Source: Longimicrobiales bacterium (GTDB lineage: Bacteria > Gemmatimonadota > Gemmatimonadetes > Longimicrobiales > Gaopeijiaceae). From it: a stretch of DNA of 57,757 nucleotides. The stretch lies in the NCBI GenBank assembly GCA_028278645.1, contig JANQDZ010000032.1:1-57757 (forward strand), given 5' to 3'. Positions within the stretch are counted from its first letter, which is position 1; every line of letters starts with the position of its first letter. A program made the position numbers and the translations under genes. Positions 4,564 to 11,797 of the stretch are shown piece after piece. Below the pieces are notes generated by a model. It worked only from the letters and a program-made list of their open reading frames with translations, was not told the DNA's origin and ran no database searches.

Positions 4564-4696
4564 CGCTGGGCCTCGGCGGAGGTGGCGAAAGCCAGGCGCT
4601 CCCCGGCTTCTCATCTTAAAGTCGTACGCCGGGTTGGATCGGTTCACGGGGCGGTGAGGGGAACCTGCAAACAAGGGGCCTGGTACTGATTGGATC

Positions 4697-5659
4697 ATGA
4701 TCGAATTGGATCAAGCGGGCTCCGGGCTTTTGTCCGCCATAACATTCAAGCCCCCACCGGACCTCTCCCCGTGGATCGAGTACTTGTGGGCCCAGGCATA
4801 CCCCCCCGACCGGGAGGAACGAGATTGGCTGGTGGTGCCGGATGCAAGCAGCCACATACTCGTTCAAGGCTTCGCCGGAGGCCGATGCCGCGCCAGGCTG
4901 ATAGGGCCGCGGTCCAGGGCTGTTCGGTTTCGTCTGGCCGACAGGCGGTGGACCGTGGGGGTGCGATTCAGACCCGGGGCGCTTCCTTCACTGGTTGGTG
5001 GGCCGGCCGGGGAACTCGTCGACGCAGGGATACCTCTGGAAGACGTTTCCCAGATTCGGCCTGAACGGTTGCAGGAGCGGATAAGGGACGGATTCGCCGA
5101 TGAAACGGTCCCGCTTCTTCTGTCTGTCCTTCGGCGGCGGTTCAGGGATCAGGAGCCACCGAGTTGGAAGATTCGGGCTTTTTTGAGAGCCTCCCGCCAA
5201 TCCGGCAATGGAGAAAGGGTCGGAAAGGTGGCATCCCGCCTCGGAATGGGATCTCGTACTCTCCGACGAGCCAGCCTGGACGGGATTGGGCTCTCGCCCA
5301 AGTCCGTCCTCCGTGTCCGCCGCGCCCAACGGGCGGCCCTTCGAATGGTCTATCAGGCCGAAAACCCTTCTCGCGTGGCCCACCTCGAAGGGTACTCGGA
5401 CCAGGCGCACCTATCCAGAGACTTCGGGGCTCTCTTCGGTGAGTCCCCGTCCACCTACCTCCGGCGTCGCACGGAAGGCCGATTCTTTCAAGCGGCTGCC
5501 CCAATGAAAGACGAGCTTGGACGGATCCTCGGTATCGAAGTCCACAGGAAACAAGGTTTGAAGGTAGATGAACAAGACGCGCGCAACGCTCCTGGGCCTC
5601 GGATGGGTGCTGTTTACCCCCTTGGCCCTGGCAGGTCAGCCCCAACCCGACACCGTTGA
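4697..5659 (+). CDS. AraC-family transcriptional regulator
   Basis: A 320-residue regulator. The N-terminal part (about 1-130) resembles the DUF6597-type effector domain: FKPPPDLSPWIEYLWAQ, a DASSHILV segment and GVRFRPGALPSLVG. The C-terminal part (about 160-265) is a double helix-turn-helix: RVGKVASRLGMGSRTLRR, then SPKSVLRVRRAQRA, and the second helix pair ending GYSDQAHLSRDFGALFGESP, an almost textbook AraC signature. The ATG overlaps, on the opposite strand, an ATG of the ABC ATPase frame in a TCATGA palindrome. The last 92 bases overlap the next gene, so the final 30 residues or so are unconserved tail. The divergent ABC operon is a plausible target. Confidence 0.88.
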   Translation: MIELDQAGSGLLSAITFKPPPDLSPWIEYLWAQAYPPDREERDWLVVPDASSHILVQGFAGGRCRARLIGPRSRAVRFRLADRRWTVGVRFRPGALPSLVGGPAGELVDAGIPLEDVSQIRPERLQERIRDGFADETVPLLLSVLRRRFRDQEPPSWKIRAFLRASRQSGNGERVGKVASRLGMGSRTLRRASLDGIGLSPKSVLRVRRAQRAALRMVYQAENPSRVAHLEGYSDQAHLSRDFGALFGESPSTYLRRRTEGRFFQAAAPMKDELGRILGIEVHRKQGLKVDEQDARNAPGPRMGAVYPLGPGRSAPTRHR

Positions 5660-6167
5660 GATCTACGCGGTCCACGATTCGAACCGGGAGGCCCGGACGG
5701 TACTTGAGCTTCGGGACGTTCTACAGGGCCTCGACCTTCGGGATTGGGTGATCACCCCGACCGTTCGAATCGATGAAACCCAAATCCCTCACAGTCACCC
5801 CGTCCTCACGATACATACCCGGCACCTGGGGGATCGGGATGCGCTTCTGGCGGTCTTCCTCCATGAACAGTTTCACTGGTGGGTGCTGGAGCGGGACGAT
5901 GAGCTCCGAGGGGCGGTAAGCGATTTCCGGGAGGCCTTTCCCGAGGTGCCTGTCGGCAACCCCACCGGTGGGCGAAGCGAGTACAGCACTTACCTGCACC
6001 TGGTGGTTTGTCATCTCGAACTCCAAGCGGTGACGCTCCTGAAGGGTGAGGCCCGGGCCCGGAAAACCCTGTCTGCCAACACCCACTATACCTGGATCTA
6101 CGATCGGGTCCTCGACGATCCCCGAGTCGGCGAGATCCTTGCCCGACACGGATTCACCCTCTCGTGA
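5568..6167 (+). CDS. Secreted HExxH putative zinc metalloprotease
   Basis: A 199-residue protein with a signal peptide (TRATLLGLGWVLFTPLALAG). It contains H99-E100-Q-F-H103, which fits the zincin HExxH core, and a later HLELQA around residue 145 that could give a third ligand. I do not recognise a named family. It begins inside the AraC gene (92-base overlap, other frame) and ends four bases before the next gene, so the three genes probably form one transcript. The role is unknown; zinc-protease activity is inferred from the motif and export signal. Confidence 0.6.
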   Translation: MNKTRATLLGLGWVLFTPLALAGQPQPDTVEIYAVHDSNREARTVLELRDVLQGLDLRDWVITPTVRIDETQIPHSHPVLTIHTRHLGDRDALLAVFLHEQFHWWVLERDDELRGAVSDFREAFPEVPVGNPTGGRSEYSTYLHLVVCHLELQAVTLLKGEARARKTLSANTHYTWIYDRVLDDPRVGEILARHGFTLS

Positions 6168-6171
6168 GACT

Positions 6172-6888
6172 ATGAGCGAAGGATCCTCCTCCGAAGTCAC
6201 CGCCCGTAGTCATCTCCTCCAGGGCGGAACGATCATGGTGAGCATCCTGCTGGCCCTCGTCATCGGCGCCGCATGGGAATGGGTTACGGATCGCCTCGAG
6301 GAGAGGGAATACCGGCAAGGCCTCATCACCGAGTTCGAGGAAGGAAGGCGCGAACTCGCGTTCGATATCACGGCACGAGAGGCGATCCTCGACCGGACCA
6401 CCAGAATGTTGGACGTGGGCATGGACCCGGTGGGCTCGATCCCTCAAGACTCGGCCGAAGCGTATTCTTCTGCGTTGATCGATTTCCGGTACTTCACTCC
6501 CACCCACCCCGTGCTCGAAGACATCATCGCAGGAGGCCGCCTCGAACTCCTCCGTTCGGACCGGCTTCGTCGGTCACTGCTCCGGTACATCCAGGAACGG
6601 GATCGGATCCATGTGGTGGAGAGCAGGGAGCGGGACTTCGTGGCCGACGCCCTCGAGCCCTATCTCCTGGAAAACCTCCCCCTAGGAATACCCCCGTCGC
6701 CGGGCGATCCTGTCTCCTGGGGGCCAGCCACCGATGCAGGAACGCTCACCAACCTGTTGCGTCGGCCTGCTTTCAGGACCCTTCTCGTGCTTCGCCACGA
6801 CCGCACCGACATCGCGCTTCGGTTTTCCCGCGGCCTCGACCGATCCATCGACTCCGTCTTGGCGGCCCTGGGTGCCCCGAATCACTGA
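6172..6888 (+). CDS. Single-pass membrane protein of unknown function
   Basis: A 238-residue protein. A short cytoplasmic N-terminus is followed by one membrane segment at about 19-38 (GGTIMVSILLALVIGAAWEW) and a long, charged, mostly helical region rich in Arg and Glu (RLEEREYRQGLITEFEEGRR). The pattern resembles the DUF6090-like proteins that have one TM helix and an alpha-helical domain, but I cannot name it firmly. The ATG at 6172 follows the previous stop by four bases, which favours co-transcription with the AraC and HExxH genes. The frame is also open upstream within the preceding gene, but that part has no coding character of its own. Confidence 0.6.
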   Translation: MSEGSSSEVTARSHLLQGGTIMVSILLALVIGAAWEWVTDRLEEREYRQGLITEFEEGRRELAFDITAREAILDRTTRMLDVGMDPVGSIPQDSAEAYSSALIDFRYFTPTHPVLEDIIAGGRLELLRSDRLRRSLLRYIQERDRIHVVESRERDFVADALEPYLLENLPLGIPPSPGDPVSWGPATDAGTLTNLLRRPAFRTLLVLRHDRTDIALRFSRGLDRSIDSVLAALGAPNH

Positions 6889-7036
6889 CCGGGAGACACG
6901 AAACACCTGGCAACAAGTCCTTTCCTCGCTAAAACGCGCGGCGGTATACTCCCGCCGTACGAACTTTCGCATGGACCGGATGTTCCGGTCCCACTCCCTC
7001 CGGCCGGAAAAACGACTGAATGACGGTTGGCTGGTT

Positions 7037-7705
7037 CTATGCAGCCCGATCCGGCCCCGTGTAGCCCAGGTCCGTCATCAAGGCGGGGGCTCGTTCAAAG
7101 AGACGCTCGCGGATCTTCACCCGGGCTCGGGAAAGGCTCGCCCGGACATTCGTCTGGGACTTGCCCAACGCCTGCGCAGCCTCACAGGGTTTGAAGTCCT
7201 GGAGGGCCACGAGCCGAAAGGTCCGGTCCTGGAGCTCGGGAAGGCCCTCCACCACCGCGTTCACCGTGTCCCAGAGTCTCTCCGCATCCACGCTCACCTC
7301 GGATTGGAGCTCCCGGTTGGGGTCAACCTCTCGGACGTGGGCTCTCTTCTTCGCGAGGTCGACGGAGGCTCTGGATCGGAACTGGCTTTGGATCTGGTTC
7401 TCGGTGATGCGATACACCCAACTGGAAACCTTCGAATGGAAGCGAAAGGAGTGGATAGAGTTGAGCACCCGAATCAGGACCTCCTGAGCAACGTCCTCGG
7501 CGTCGTCCAGGTCCTGGGTCCTGGCCAGGGCGTGCCGAAGAGCCATTTCCCGGGCCCATCTCAGTAGATCGGATAAGGCAATCGGGTCCCCTGAGATCGC
7601 GTCCTTGGCCAAAGCATCCCCGTTCCGGGCCGGGGGTGGTGAGTGGGGGGGAGAGCCTAGGTTCCCGGGTCCGCGATCCCTACCCCGACGGAGTCTTTCT
7701 GTCAC
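7037..7705 (-). CDS. ECF-type RNA polymerase sigma factor (stand-alone)
   Basis: A 222-residue sigma factor. A disordered Pro/Gly/Arg-rich leader (about 1-30) precedes region 2 (LRHALARTQDLDDAEDVAQE, VSSWVYRITENQIQSQFRSR) and region 4 (LPELQDRTFRLVALQDFKPC, EAAQALGKSQTNVRASLSRA). The start is a GTG with a GGGGGAG-like ribosome site. No anti-sigma gene lies next to it; the nearest, 192 bases upstream on the same strand, follows a different sigma gene. Region 4 has C-E-A-A-Q-A-L-G-K-S in place of the commoner EIA(E/D)-x-L-(G/N), which is still compatible with a helix-turn-helix. Confidence 0.88.
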   Translation of the reverse strand: MTERLRRGRDRGPGNLGSPPHSPPPARNGDALAKDAISGDPIALSDLLRWAREMALRHALARTQDLDDAEDVAQEVLIRVLNSIHSFRFHSKVSSWVYRITENQIQSQFRSRASVDLAKKRAHVREVDPNRELQSEVSVDAERLWDTVNAVVEGLPELQDRTFRLVALQDFKPCEAAQALGKSQTNVRASLSRARVKIRERLFERAPALMTDLGYTGPDRAA

Positions 7706-7897
7706 AGCTCTCCCCCTCCCCTGGAGTGGTTTCAGCCCTCACATCCCCTTCTATCCCAAGACGCCCGGCACAACGGAACCGTGCAAAATCCCAAGAACGG
7801 GGTTACCCAAAGATGTATGGAGAGCATGGGAGAGTTCCGGACCCAGAATGACCCGCAAGAATCTACGGAGGGACCAGCTGGGGGAGGGGTAGACCGT

Positions 7898-8311
7898 TTA
7901 GGGGGTCCCAGTCGAGGTCTTACCCTCGGCACGAATCTGAAGGATCACGGATACCGCCCCCACGCAGAAAGAGAACAAGAGCAATTGAGACACGTCCGCA
8001 GTACCCACCGATTCGACAGCAACGACGGCTGCCATGGCAGTGAGGGACCAAAGGAGTCCACTGATCAGTGTCTGGGTACGCGGAAGTCGTTGGCCTTCCG
8101 GAGAGCGGTCCGGCTCGGGAAGCCCCGCCAGGACCCGTTGAATCAGGCTTTCCGGGACCTCAATCTCTTGCTGGTACTCAGCATGGATTCTCCGGACAAT
8201 GCGGAGATCTTCCCGACAAGAAGAACAGCTCTCGAGATGAGCCTCGATCTCCGGGCTCCGCACCTGGTCGACCTGGTAGTCGATGAGACGATCGGTTTCC
8301 GGGCAATTCAT
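7898..8311 (-). CDS. Zinc-finger (zf-HC2) anti-sigma factor
   Basis: A 137-residue protein with an N-terminal zinc-binding anti-sigma domain: C3, then H25-x3-C29-x2-C32 in the order HLESCSSC. Two hydrophobic segments follow (about 84-102 and 107-125, the second reading SQLLLFSFCVGAVSVIL), so the protein is anchored in the membrane with its zinc finger in the cytoplasm. It overlaps the upstream sigma factor by four bases (ATGA) and is its expected antagonist. The signal that releases the sigma factor is unknown. Confidence 0.85.
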   Translation of the reverse strand: MNCPETDRLIDYQVDQVRSPEIEAHLESCSSCREDLRIVRRIHAEYQQEIEVPESLIQRVLAGLPEPDRSPEGQRLPRTQTLISGLLWSLTAMAAVVAVESVGTADVSQLLLFSFCVGAVSVILQIRAEGKTSTGTP

Positions 8312-8853
8312 GTGTCAAATCCCTCCAGGATTTCTCTCAGCCGTTTGATCCCGTGCCTGATGTTCGACCGGACCGTGGCTTTTTTTGTCTTCATGATGTC
8401 AGCGACTTCCTGTGGGGTTCTACCATCGAGAATTCTCAAATGGATGGCTTCCCGCTCCCGCTGAGGAAGACGACCGAGGGCACGTACCAGGACCCCACGG
8501 ATTTCCCGTCCCTCGACCTCCTTTTGCGGATCCGGAGGTCTCCAATTGAGGTTTTCTCCCCCAGGGTCTCTCTCCATGCGGTCGAGAACCTCCTGGCGGA
8601 CCCTGGAGGCCCGGAAGTCACTAATGCACAGGTTGTTGGCGAGCCGGCGGAGCCATGCTTCGAAGGAGCCGTCACCCCGGTATGACCCACGCTTTTCGAA
8701 GGCCTGAATCCAGGTTCTCTGAAACAGATCCTCGGCGTGATCGGTGGAATCGCTGTACGTCATGCAGATCCGCAGCACCATAGGCGCGTGGGTCCGCACA
8801 AGGCTCTCGAAGTATCGGTGGTCACCACTGCGAAACCTTCCCAGGTCAATCAT
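8308..8853 (-). CDS. ECF-type RNA polymerase sigma factor with cognate anti-sigma
   Basis: A 181-residue ECF sigma factor when started at the ATG at 8853 (MIDLGRFRSGDHRYFESLV). Region 2 includes VLRICMTYSDSTDHAEDLFQ and FEAWLRRLANNLCISDFRAS; region 4 includes LPQREREAIHLRILDGRTPQ and EVADIMKTKKATVRSNIRHG. The frame is open another 36 codons upstream, but that part is the reverse frame of the upstream membrane gene and has no sigma homology. The gene overlaps its membrane-protein neighbour by eight bases and its anti-sigma gene by four, so the three are coupled. Confidence 0.88.
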   Translation of the reverse strand: MIDLGRFRSGDHRYFESLVRTHAPMVLRICMTYSDSTDHAEDLFQRTWIQAFEKRGSYRGDGSFEAWLRRLANNLCISDFRASRVRQEVLDRMERDPGGENLNWRPPDPQKEVEGREIRGVLVRALGRLPQREREAIHLRILDGRTPQEVADIMKTKKATVRSNIRHGIKRLREILEGFDT

Positions 8854-9622
8854 CCGACGCCTGTGAAAGGCGAACCGTGCAATCGATCCCGCGAATACGA
8901 GTGACAGAAATAAGTAACGCCAGCTCAGCCGCCGGAAGGAGCAGGGGGAGCCAGGCGCCAAGGATGGCTGGTTTGGACGGATCGGACCGGACCCATCTCA
9001 AACCTGCCGCCACGGCAATGAAGAAGGCGATCCCGGTGGCAAGCCCCAGCGCCCAGCAGGCGTTCCGCCGAGCCGGCGGTGATAGGCCGCTGGTGAGAAA
9101 CCCCGCTCTCTGGCCGAGGAGAGCAGCCAGGACGGCGAATAGGGCGACCGCAAACAGGCTATGGACGAGGTAGGTCAGCCAATTCGGCGGACGTTCAAAT
9201 GGGCGGCCCAATCGAAAGTTGTAGCTCGTCCGTCGATCGGCGTCCGCTATGGCTCTCAGCTTCAGAAGAGTTGATGGAGTCAGGGGACCCAAAGGGAACT
9301 CCGCCTTCAGGTCCGCACCCTGTGAGGCCCGGGCACGGTAGTCGGCCAGGGGGGATCCGTACGCAAGCAAACCGTAGGAGATGACGGCGAGAAGGAGTGC
9401 CCGGCCCGCCAAGGATCGAGGGCGAAGCGCCAGATGGGCCGCGTACCCTCCGGCAAAGGCCGTAAACGGTAGGAACAGACCCACCCACCCCGGCAGGAGG
9501 TAGGCGATCTCCCAACCGCTCCATGCCCGGCCACCGAGGCCTCCCATCACGAGTCGGTAGGAAAGGGCCAACCCCACCAGCACGCCCAACCAGATCGCAA
9601 CCGGTCGGAAGAAGCCCCTCAT
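8846..9622 (-). CDS. Polytopic membrane protein of unknown function, upstream of sigma/anti-sigma pair
   Basis: About 258 residues with roughly six membrane segments: AIWLGVLVGLALSYRLVM, WVGLFLPFTAFAGGYAAHLA, LLLAVISYGLLAYG, LVHSLFAVALFAVLAALLG, LGLATGIAFFIAVAAGLRWV and a final leucine-rich one. A hydrophilic loop in the middle holds GPLTPSTLLKLRAIADADRR. The plan recalls membrane parts of LptF/LptG-like permeases but I cannot assign the family. The ATG at 9622 has a strong GGAGGAG site six bases upstream, so it is preferred over the in-frame start at 9673. Its 3' end overlaps the sigma gene by eight bases. Confidence 0.65.
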   Translation of the reverse strand: MRGFFRPVAIWLGVLVGLALSYRLVMGGLGGRAWSGWEIAYLLPGWVGLFLPFTAFAGGYAAHLALRPRSLAGRALLLAVISYGLLAYGSPLADYRARASQGADLKAEFPLGPLTPSTLLKLRAIADADRRTSYNFRLGRPFERPPNWLTYLVHSLFAVALFAVLAALLGQRAGFLTSGLSPPARRNACWALGLATGIAFFIAVAAGLRWVRSDPSKPAILGAWLPLLLPAAELALLISVTRIRGIDCTVRLSQASDD

Positions 9623-9689
9623 GCCCTTCTCCTCCGGGCTGATCCCATCCCCCAATGGTTCTGACCCAGCCACCTGTGGGCGCCAACAA

Positions 9690-9893
9690 CTACCGGCCCT
9701 CGCAATCCTCGTCGGACGTGCAGTTCGGCTGGACCCAACAGCACCTCTCGCAGCAGTAGGGCTCCGGTCCCTCCGTCATGCAACAGTTCCGAAGCGCGTG
9801 AGTCCAGATCTTGCTCTCGGCCGGTTGGGTGAACAGGACCGCTCCGAAGAGTCCGTTCAGAACAACGAGTCCCATGATGAGCTTCCAGCGCAT
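9690..9893 (-). CDS. Small secreted 8-cysteine peptide
   Basis: A 67-residue protein: a short basic start, a hydrophobic signal (LIMGLVVLNGLFGAVLF), a possible cut near QPAES, then a mature part of about 40 residues with eight cysteines at 37, 38, 47, 48, 51, 52, 58 and 64. The pattern is CC-x8-CC-x2-CC-x5-C-x5-C, dense enough for four disulphides or a metal site. An AAAGGA ribosome site precedes the ATG. It lies 48 bases downstream of a 6-bladed-propeller lipoprotein and a thioredoxin-like gene on the same strand. That context recalls the Bacteroidota NVEALA-type short peptides next to TolB-like propeller proteins; the likeness is in layout, not sequence. Function unknown. Confidence 0.7.
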   Translation of the reverse strand: MRWKLIMGLVVLNGLFGAVLFTQPAESKIWTHALRNCCMTEGPEPYCCERCCWVQPNCTSDEDCEGR

Positions 9894-9941
9894 GTCCTTT
9901 ATCCTTTGCCGTGGGAGGGGTAGCCTCCGTCAAGTGACCGG

Positions 9942-11096
9942 TCATTCGACGGGGCCCTCACACCACCGAGCCAGTGCCTGGTGGCCGTCGGAAACTTCCA
10001 GCAGTCCATAAATGGCCTGCCCAGTAAAAACGGCAGGGCTGAACTCGGGTGGAAAACTGAAACTCTCGATACCTGTGTCGGTAGAGACCTTGAGCCAATC
10101 GGCGCCTCTGCCCAGGGGATCGACGGATGTGTCGAACATCCGCATCCACGCCACTTCCCTGGATTCGCACCGCAGGTCCGTCGCTACCGGTCGTTGGTCA
10201 GCGAATTGGCTTCGGTACCCCAGGGCCAAACTCGTGAAATCGATCCCCGAGTCCTCGTACCCCGGCCCCAACTCCAGTCGGCCCATCCATCGGAGATAGG
10301 TCTCGATGTCTTCCAGGCTGATCGGGACCGTTGGTATTTCTACCGGTACCCTTACCCTGATTGTTCCGTCGGAATCAAGCCAGAGCAGCTCCCCGGATCT
10401 TGGGCTCCACAGGACAACAACCCCATCGCAGGCGTCCCAGAACGGCACGGGAGACCACTCTTTTTGACCGGGGGTTTCGCCGGCGTTGTGATCCGAGAAC
10501 AGTGCCAACTCGGACCCCGGCTCCAGAAGACGGTCCACCCGACTCAGTGAGCCTCTGATCAGGTCCTCGGTGCGATCGATCCTAACGGGGAACTGGCTGG
10601 CCAGGAAGCTCAGACCGTTGTTTCTCACCCTGAAAGGATCGGCGTAGGAGATGTTTCGGATGTCGGAACGGGCCCTGATCCTACCCCTGTCACTCAGCCT
10701 GGCAGATTCGAGAAAAGTGCCTGACCCATCAAACTCCGATACGCGCCCGGCGCCGAGATCCCATACCAGAACTCCGGAGTTATCAGGATTGAGGGTTGGT
10801 TGGATGGCCCACGGATCCAGAAACTCCCCCGGGCCCTCCCCTTCCGTTCCAAAGTGGTGGGCCTCACCGTCTCCGAGAGCCACCCGGGCTACGAAGGGCG
10901 GTGCTGCATCCAACACCCAGATGGAACCATCGACGAGAATGACATCCCGGACAGCAACGAAGTTCGACGAAGTGGTGAGGAGACGGACCTCATCCGCCTG
11001 GATGGTTCGGGAAACGATGTGGGTCCCGGACTCACCGAAGGAGCAGGCGGCAGTCACGAAAGGAAGGACGGCTACGAGGGTTCCTGGTCCTCTCAT
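9942..11096 (-). CDS. 6-bladed beta-propeller lipoprotein
   Basis: A 384-residue lipoprotein: the signal ends in a lipobox (FVTAAC, Cys18). The body shows repeating propeller strands: ILVDGSIWVLDAAPPFVARV, a GxGPGEF turn (GTEGEGPGEFLDPWAI), GVLVWDLGAGRVSEFDGSG and ELLWLDSDG. These match the 6-bladed beta-propeller group (NHL/BF-type) common beside short secreted peptides in Bacteroidota and Gemmatimonadota. It overlaps the upstream thioredoxin-like gene by four bases and precedes the 8-Cys peptide by 48 bases. It probably sits in the outer membrane or periplasm as a binding scaffold. Confidence 0.8.
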   Translation of the reverse strand: MRGPGTLVAVLPFVTAACSFGESGTHIVSRTIQADEVRLLTTSSNFVAVRDVILVDGSIWVLDAAPPFVARVALGDGEAHHFGTEGEGPGEFLDPWAIQPTLNPDNSGVLVWDLGAGRVSEFDGSGTFLESARLSDRGRIRARSDIRNISYADPFRVRNNGLSFLASQFPVRIDRTEDLIRGSLSRVDRLLEPGSELALFSDHNAGETPGQKEWSPVPFWDACDGVVVLWSPRSGELLWLDSDGTIRVRVPVEIPTVPISLEDIETYLRWMGRLELGPGYEDSGIDFTSLALGYRSQFADQRPVATDLRCESREVAWMRMFDTSVDPLGRGADWLKVSTDTGIESFSFPPEFSPAVFTGQAIYGLLEVSDGHQALARWCEGPVE

Positions 11097-11662
11097 GGTC
11101 TGGGTACGCCCCGGGGCATGTCGGCGGTGCCCTTGGCGATTTCAGCAATCCTGCTGCCGTGTCCTTCCGCCAGGATCAGGCCTTCCCCGTCAAGAAGGAA
11201 CACCCAGGGAGTGCGAAGTGTGAGGCCATACCCCAAACCGTCGAGGAGATCTTCGGCGACGGTCCAGACTTCCGCGTGCCACCCGTGATCTAAAGCGTAC
11301 TGGTTGGCTGAGGAGATGGGCTCGGAGGAAATGGCAATGGCCCGCAAACCTGGTCGTGGGGCAGTGGTCCAGGCTCTCCAGAGCGGAGCCACAGCCTCGC
11401 AATACCCGCAACCAGAGTTGAAGACCAGCAGCAGCGTTGGCTCGCCGGTGGCCAGGGAAACTTTCTGGCCATCGGGGCCAAGAGCATGGACCCCGGACAA
11501 AGAACTCCCGGCCTGGAGCCAAGGCACTGCCCGAGGATCATCCGTTCGAGGACGAAGACCAAGGAAGAGGGCCTGCGCCAACGCCAAAAGCGCCAGGAAG
11601 ACGATCACCAGGTCCCTACGATCAAATCGTCTCATTCGAAATCGATGAAGGCCAACAATCAC
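11093..11662 (-). CDS. Membrane-anchored thioredoxin-like (TlpA/ResA-type) protein
   Basis: A 189-residue protein with an N-terminal anchor (LVIVFLALLALAQALFLGL, about 18-36) and a thioredoxin-fold domain. The active-site motif is C85-G-Y-C88 inside FNSGCGYCEA, preceded by the strand EPTLLLVFNSG and followed by a cis-Pro region (LRTPWVFLLDGEG). This fits extracytoplasmic thiol-disulphide proteins. The start is a GTG; an ATG nine codons later (11635) is also possible and neither has a strong ribosome site. Coupling with a Cys-rich peptide gene two positions downstream suggests a role in that peptide's oxidation or isomerisation (inference). Confidence 0.8.
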   Translation of the reverse strand: MIVGLHRFRMRRFDRRDLVIVFLALLALAQALFLGLRPRTDDPRAVPWLQAGSSLSGVHALGPDGQKVSLATGEPTLLLVFNSGCGYCEAVAPLWRAWTTAPRPGLRAIAISSEPISSANQYALDHGWHAEVWTVAEDLLDGLGYGLTLRTPWVFLLDGEGLILAEGHGSRIAEIAKGTADMPRGVPRP

Positions 11663-11797
11663 CTGACACCATAACGTAGACGTTTGCCGAAGGCGAAGCG
11701 TGCAAAAGAGGTAGGGGTCCGAAGGCGGATGGCGTGCACGCTTTGCCCTCGCGCAGCCAAGGCGAGCCCCGTGGGTGAGTCTTGCGAAGTGCGGTGG

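Follow-up and report, generated by a model that had tools for sequence, protein, structure and literature searches.

The 57,757-nucleotide stretch analysed here (the window) makes up contig C14 in the 4.9-Mb draft genome of a Longimicrobiales bacterium, and its positions 7898 to 11662 carry six open reading frames (ORFs), all on the minus strand. These encode a thioredoxin-fold protein (TRX), a predicted propeller protein (PROP), a short peptide with eight cysteines (PEP), a polytopic membrane protein (MEM), an extracytoplasmic function (ECF) sigma factor (SIG) and its predicted anti-sigma factor (ANTI). Comparison with other genomes, which in depth were those of Gemmatimonadota, strongly supports the six genes as a conserved unit and not a chance neighbourhood. 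The cluster is tentatively read as a self-regulated ECF-sigma envelope-signalling module in which PEP would be the component that is sensed or matured, a reading to which we give slightly less than an even chance.

A conserved six-gene cluster

An initial annotation, made from the letters of the window alone, had described six co-oriented genes separated by short gaps or overlaps, and the ORFs confirm this layout (TM, transmembrane):

11093..11662, minus strand: TRX, membrane-anchored thioredoxin-fold protein; start at GTG 11662 or ATG 11635
9942..11096, minus strand: PROP, predicted 6-bladed propeller (DUF5128/NHL-like) with an N-terminal lipoprotein-type cysteine; overlap with TRX of 4 bases
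9690..9893, minus strand: PEP, 67-residue exported or membrane-anchored peptide with 8 invariant cysteines; gap to PROP of 48 bases
8846..9622, minus strand: MEM, predicted 6-TM LptF/LptG-fold protein; start at ATG, with an alternative upstream start at GTG 9673; gap to PEP of 67 bases
8308..8853, minus strand: SIG, ECF sigma-70 factor with regions 2 and 4; overlap with MEM of 8 bases
7898..8311, minus strand: ANTI, predicted membrane anti-sigma factor with an H-x3-C-x2-C zinc-type motif and two apparent TM segments; overlap with SIG of 4 bases

Sequence and profile searches mapped PEP to 65 loci, mostly in one genus (g2) of the window's family (f1), with several loci per genome. The flanks of these loci were searched with profiles of the six families, and recurrent extra neighbours were also sought without presupposition. 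TRX lies within 3 kb of PEP in 58 of the 65 loci, and an ECF sigma gene (60/65), an LptF/LptG-like gene (58/65) and a propeller gene (50/65) lie within 5 kb. Because the 65 loci share descent, the counts do not represent independent events. Order and strand nevertheless change among loci, which argues for selection on the gene set. The initial annotation had treated the genes as one set, an idea that would have suffered had eight-cysteine peptides commonly stood without propeller or thioredoxin neighbours; across the 65 loci they do not.

The loci fall mainly into two arrangements. Class I comprises 31 loci, the window included, and MEM, SIG and ANTI are present in all 31; PEP is followed by MEM and then by the SIG-ANTI pair, whose order varies, and TRX is found upstream on the same strand, divergent or further downstream. 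Class II comprises 27 loci, in which the usual order is SIG, TRX, PROP, PEP, with a different membrane protein (∼400 residues) after PEP. A regulator whose C-terminal half looks AraC-like by eye (e.g., L107:7672-8541) lies no more than 3 kb from PEP in 22 of these 27. The other seven loci belong to neither class, and four of them are at contig ends or on short contigs.

Occurrence across genomes provides further evidence. MEM is present in 22 of 26 peptide-positive genomes, and no MEM was found in the 24 genomes of the same family that lack the peptide. In nine genomes, the TRX profile gave 12 strong matches, of which 11 adjoin an eight-cysteine peptide gene and one, on contig C34 of the window's genome, adjoins a six-cysteine variant; no match was found in the two peptide-negative genomes searched.

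PEP founds a new family of eight-cysteine peptides

Judged by its sequence, PEP is the founder of a new family, absent from Pfam and NCBIfam. No relatives were found in Pfam, NCBIfam, PADLOC or PDB, plasmid records searched with PEP gave no match, and a fold search with its weak structural model returned nothing usable. The window peptide has the pattern CC-x8-CC-x2-CC-x5-C-x5-C; in a loosened form it has a single occurrence across all six frames of the window and none in 20 shuffled windows. The closest relative, found by a scan of genome contigs, shares 76% identity and comes from a contig titled Gemmatimonadetes bacterium (L002), where the order Trx-propeller-peptide is retained.

All eight cysteines are kept in 37 of 37 aligned members, with spacing 8-2-5-5 in 24 and 9-2-5-5 in seven. 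A near-invariant tyrosine directly precedes the second CC (33/37), and the residues between the cysteines are variable. The N-terminal hydrophobic helix holds an asparagine that is invariant (37/37), a feature unusual in a simple cleaved leader and suggestive of a membrane helix under conservation. Candidate signal-peptidase sites are plausible by eye, and the peptide may be either secreted or membrane-anchored, both being compatible with its sequence.

The eight cysteines, arranged partly in CC pairs, could also bind metal. PEP might then be an exported zinc- or copper-binding protein within a metal or thiol stress response, in keeping with the zinc-type motif of ANTI. The recurrent neighbours include no conspicuous gene for metal transport or metal resistance, however, and the extracytoplasmic location together with the linked Trx-fold protein favours disulphides; we regard this explanation as quite improbable.

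The six-cysteine variant belongs to another, divergent locus of this system in the window's genome (L123, C34:45500-57500, positions 4591-7203), with ANTI, SIG and MEM on one strand and TRX and the peptide on the other. This peptide reads CC-x4-C-x4-C-x5-C-x5-C, each middle pair being short of one cysteine. Their joint loss hints that the two missing cysteines may be bonded to each other in the eight-cysteine form. Four loci carry a recurring exported Cys-rich protein of ∼179 residues (e.g., L112:2619-3158), which by eye is unlike the eight-cysteine family.

In Bacteroidota, NVEALA peptides adjoin TolB-like propellers, and the initial annotation had drawn this comparison. The likeness is that of a small exported peptide beside a predicted 6-bladed propeller lipoprotein, but in the present cluster sigma, anti-sigma and LptF/G-like genes accompany PEP. 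No sequence link emerged, with no Pfam NVEALA match among the 37 peptides at E values up to 5.

MEM adopts a reduced LptF/LptG fold in structural models

What the initial annotation had called a polytopic membrane protein has six TM segments, as that description implied, and its modelled fold changes the picture. The window MEM gives no match to Pfam PF03739 (LptF_LptG); 15 of 29 relatives show weak LptF_LptG matches below the curated cut-off, and the best class I relative reaches E 6e-4. An AlphaFold (AF2) model built from 29 sequences has a mean predicted local distance difference test (pLDDT) score of 86 and shows six long helices. In a structure alignment, the first 19 rows are all LptF or LptG (Z 12.2-18.9) and the next, unrelated row scores 7.7; the best match is LptG 6mit_G, with Z 18.9 over 230 residues. 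The modelling thus gives good support to a six-TM LptF/LptG fold. Profile alignment of MEM to four genuine LptF/G proteins encoded in these genomes reaches E 0.05, which is too weak to stand alone, so the fold assignment rests on structure.

LptF and LptG are the inner-membrane permeases of LptB2FGC, and MEM differs from them in the parts that connect the shared six helices. In the model there is no periplasmic jellyroll between TM3 and TM4: the region has no strands and consists of ∼46 residues (117-162) holding two short helices. The cytoplasmic coupling helix of LptF/LptG, which lies between TM2 and TM3 and docks on LptB (PMC5548808), is also missing from the model, where TM2 ends at residue 82 and TM3 starts at residue 86 with a three-residue turn between them. 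The weak profile alignment to genuine LptF/G has a gap at this same position. The cluster contains no ATPase gene, and an ordinary LptF/LptG pair is encoded elsewhere in the window's genome.

Homology to MEM extends across the six TM segments of the class II membrane protein (hhalign E 1.8e-7), whose own Pfam LptF_LptG match reaches E 1.7e-7 at best. MEM genes were also observed at L125-L137, most of them with SIG and ANTI, where no peptide could be recognised; in some of these the peptide may be too divergent to see, or there may truly be none.

MEM is tied to a predicted zinc-type anti-sigma factor

SIG matches PF04542 (2.8e-16) and PF08281 (1e-10) and scores above the cut-off of TIGR02937. 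The Hx3Cx2C motif of ANTI (H25, C29 and C32) is invariant in 23 aligned members. This motif together with two TM segments is the signature of zinc-type class I anti-sigma domain (ASDI) factors, and ASDI-linked ECFs are common in Gemmatimonadetes (PMC7406223). ANTI is thus predicted to be the class I zinc-type anti-sigma factor of SIG. The pair resembles known ECF systems with class I anti-sigma factors in its sigma regions 2 and 4, its motif and TM segments, its overlapping genes and its own promoter motif. It differs from them in that ANTI is tied to an LptF/G-fold protein, and in the linkage to an eight-cysteine peptide, a Trx-fold protein and propellers.

The tie between MEM and ANTI extends to gene fusion in one locus, L036, where both lie in a single 430-residue ORF; in L059 a partial fusion runs from MEM into the zinc domain. 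Together with a C-terminal extension of the class II membrane protein, the fusion hints, short of proof, that MEM and ANTI work together.

This tie bears on the possibility that PEP is itself an effector, an antimicrobial or other disulphide-rich product that cells secrete as part of a response under ECF control, with TRX and PROP serving in maturation or as carriers and MEM providing immunity or export. A small exported eight-cysteine peptide with variable residues between its invariant cysteines, present at several paralogous loci per genome, would suit such a role. Fusion and gene order, however, connect MEM with the anti-sigma factor, which fits regulation better than immunity, and the invariant asparagine of PEP speaks for a membrane helix. 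No dedicated ATP-binding cassette (ABC) exporter or protease stood out among the recurrent neighbours of the PEP loci. An effector role is accordingly considered unlikely.

A promoter motif specific to loci with MEM

A two-block motif search upstream of class I peptide genes recovered TTGCAC ... CTGTC far above shuffled controls. In loci with MEM, 68 sites have the two blocks at a spacing of 16, compared with 1-9 at any other spacing, and loci without MEM have none at spacing 16; specificity of TTGCAC-N16-CTGTC for loci with MEM is therefore well supported. The motif is located before PEP, before divergent TRX genes, before some propellers and before a second sigma gene. Exact sites number 1 to 10 per genome in ten genus-g2 genomes (0 to 2 for a reversed control pattern), and each of the remaining 17 genomes searched has at most one.

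A matrix trained solely on other genomes was then run over the 57.7-kb window. Its three best sites (starts 11675, 8852 and 7756; the next site scores 7.8) are all on the strand of the cluster and in or beside it. The features concerned are:

11679..11706, minus strand: predicted ECF promoter TTTGCACGCTTCGCCTTCGGCAAACGTC, upstream of TRX; matrix score 23.4, the best in the window
8856..8883, minus strand: predicted ECF promoter ATTGCACGGTTCGCCTTTCACAGGCGTC, upstream of SIG and within the end of MEM; score 17.8
7760..7787, minus strand: predicted ECF promoter TTTGCACGGTTCCGTTGTGCCGGGCGTC, between ANTI and a second ECF sigma gene that lies downstream; score 11.0
7037..7705, minus strand: second ECF-type sigma gene, which the third site may serve; outside the conserved core

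SIG may be the factor that uses the motif. In the window's genome the second block reads CGTC, and exact matches genome-wide comprise two of the three window sites and one on contig C75.

The third site sits 54 bases ahead of the first possible start of the second sigma gene, and a second sigma gene behind a TTGCAC-type site is also seen in the relatives L042 and L068. Contig C75 (L124, L191) carries a partial MEM gene, an ECF sigma gene behind a TTGCAC-type site and several propeller genes, one with a TTGCAC-type site ∼900 bases upstream; this may be a third locus of the regulon.

Most TRX relatives retain a single cysteine

The window TRX has an N-terminal TM segment and a CGYC motif; the initial annotation had noted the motif and proposed that the gene set oxidises the peptide. 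The motif does not extend to the family: among 33 aligned relatives the first cysteine is kept in all 33 and the second in only eight (18 have serine and seven threonine), so the CxxC of thioredoxin-type disulphide oxidoreductases is not conserved. With most relatives of the CxxS or CxxT type, the proposed oxidising role loses ground. A mostly single-cysteine family would suit the trapping or reduction of mixed disulphides rather than simple oxidation. The N-terminal helix of TRX contains a near-invariant glutamine (31/33), and we would guess that it pairs with the asparagine-bearing helix of PEP.

PROP alone has no Pfam match in the window. DUF5128 is matched by 10 of 20 members of its family, at 2.9e-6 for the best, and a search of the PDB with a profile of the family retrieves NHL propellers at ∼1e-34. 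DUF5128 genes number 70 in one 4.5-Mb relative (G006) versus 4 to 26 in eight others; because these genomes carry 4 to 70 such genes, little weight was given to a neighbouring propeller on its own.

The TRX of the window also matches the MauD profile at E 3e-4, far under the profile's cut-off, and this match prompted a comparison with methylamine dehydrogenase. The mau genes bring together a propeller, a small disulphide-rich protein and a MauD-like Trx-fold protein, the three kinds also proposed for PROP, PEP and TRX. The cluster could then encode a similar enzyme, with a propeller large subunit, a multi-disulphide small subunit bearing a tryptophan-derived cofactor and a MauD-like maturation protein; two peptides also match the quinohemoprotein gamma profile at E 0.03. 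Of the alternatives, only this one was set against a hard feature, and it did not hold: the mature part contains fewer than two tryptophans in 20 of 37 peptides and none in five, so a two-tryptophan (tryptophan tryptophylquinone, TTQ) cofactor cannot be general. PEP has no conserved tryptophan pair, PROP appears to be of a different, NHL/DUF5128-like propeller type, and the cluster adds sigma and anti-sigma factors and an LptF/G-like protein. The enzyme interpretation was rejected as highly improbable.

A proposed signalling mechanism

From the well-supported linkage, motif and fold, the following mechanism is inferred. SIG would be kept at the inner membrane by the two-TM zinc-type ANTI together with MEM, which lacks in its model the parts needed for ABC-driven lipid transport and may have been re-used as a signalling partner. 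PEP would present a small eight-cysteine domain outside, on a hydrophobic helix; the anchored, mostly single-cysteine TRX would act on its thiols, and the PROP lipoprotein would probably partner it or serve as its receptor. Altered folding or oxidation of PEP, or altered occupancy by a metal or ligand, could pass through MEM to ANTI and release SIG. Freed SIG would then transcribe trx-prop-pep-mem and its own sig-anti from the TTGCAC-type promoters, creating positive feedback. The physical contacts, the signal and its direction, use of the motif by SIG and the disulphides are conditional parts of this scheme; the gene unit in its two arrangements, the modelled fold of MEM, one MEM-ANTI fusion and the specificity of the motif come from the computation. 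The initial annotation had also suggested sensing of the peptide, an idea that gains support from the MEM/ANTI fusion and the shared promoter motif. Its interpretation of the cluster is supported in part.

In a more specific form of the scheme, an LptF/LptG-fold protein would have given up lipid transport and become the partner of an ECF anti-sigma factor in the membrane, reading the state of new membrane-proximal eight-cysteine miniproteins handled by a mostly single-cysteine thioredoxin. We consider this full version rather doubtful.

Several observations weigh against the signalling module. The structural model of PEP is poor (predicted template modelling score, pTM, 0.41), and its disulphides are for this reason assumed. 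In class II, the search for a promoter motif gave none that was clear, and the C-terminal extension of the membrane protein, which has further hydrophobic segments, is weakly ANTI-like (E 3e-4, probability 39%) and has no zinc motif. One genome (G053) has peptides and no TRX profile match, and three loci with enough flank (L073, L111 and L122) have neither MEM nor its class II homologue. Twelve MEM-SIG-ANTI sets come without a recognised peptide (L129 is at a contig end, L133 has a remnant), and the set may therefore work without PEP or with an unrecognised partner.

These peptide-less sets also favour a narrower regulatory unit of MEM, SIG and ANTI only, with PEP, TRX and PROP as regulon members adjoining by chance; it is also common for a propeller or TRX gene to carry a copy of the promoter motif of its own. 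Yet the class II peptide also keeps TRX, a propeller and an LptF/G-like neighbour despite a different order, sigma factor and motif, and chance adjacency is held to be distinctly unlikely. The signalling module with PEP as its sensed or matured component is preferred, on the tentative terms given at the outset.

Implications for ECF signalling in Gemmatimonadota

No published description of this system was found in the open-licence literature, and the comparisons suggest an undescribed variant of ECF/anti-sigma signalling within the libraries searched. A conserved gene set with an eight-cysteine peptide, an anti-sigma factor and a type-specific promoter code likewise suggests an undescribed envelope-sensing system. 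The analysis gives context to an unannotated peptide family whose members are short enough for gene callers to miss, and it suggests that signalling has taken over, without an ATPase, the LptF/LptG fold known from lipopolysaccharide export. Gemmatimonadota are rich in ECF sigma/anti-sigma pairs, few of which have a known signal; here the promoter code is defined, an exported peptide is a candidate sensor and the fold of the membrane partner is known, so this module makes one such regulon directly testable.

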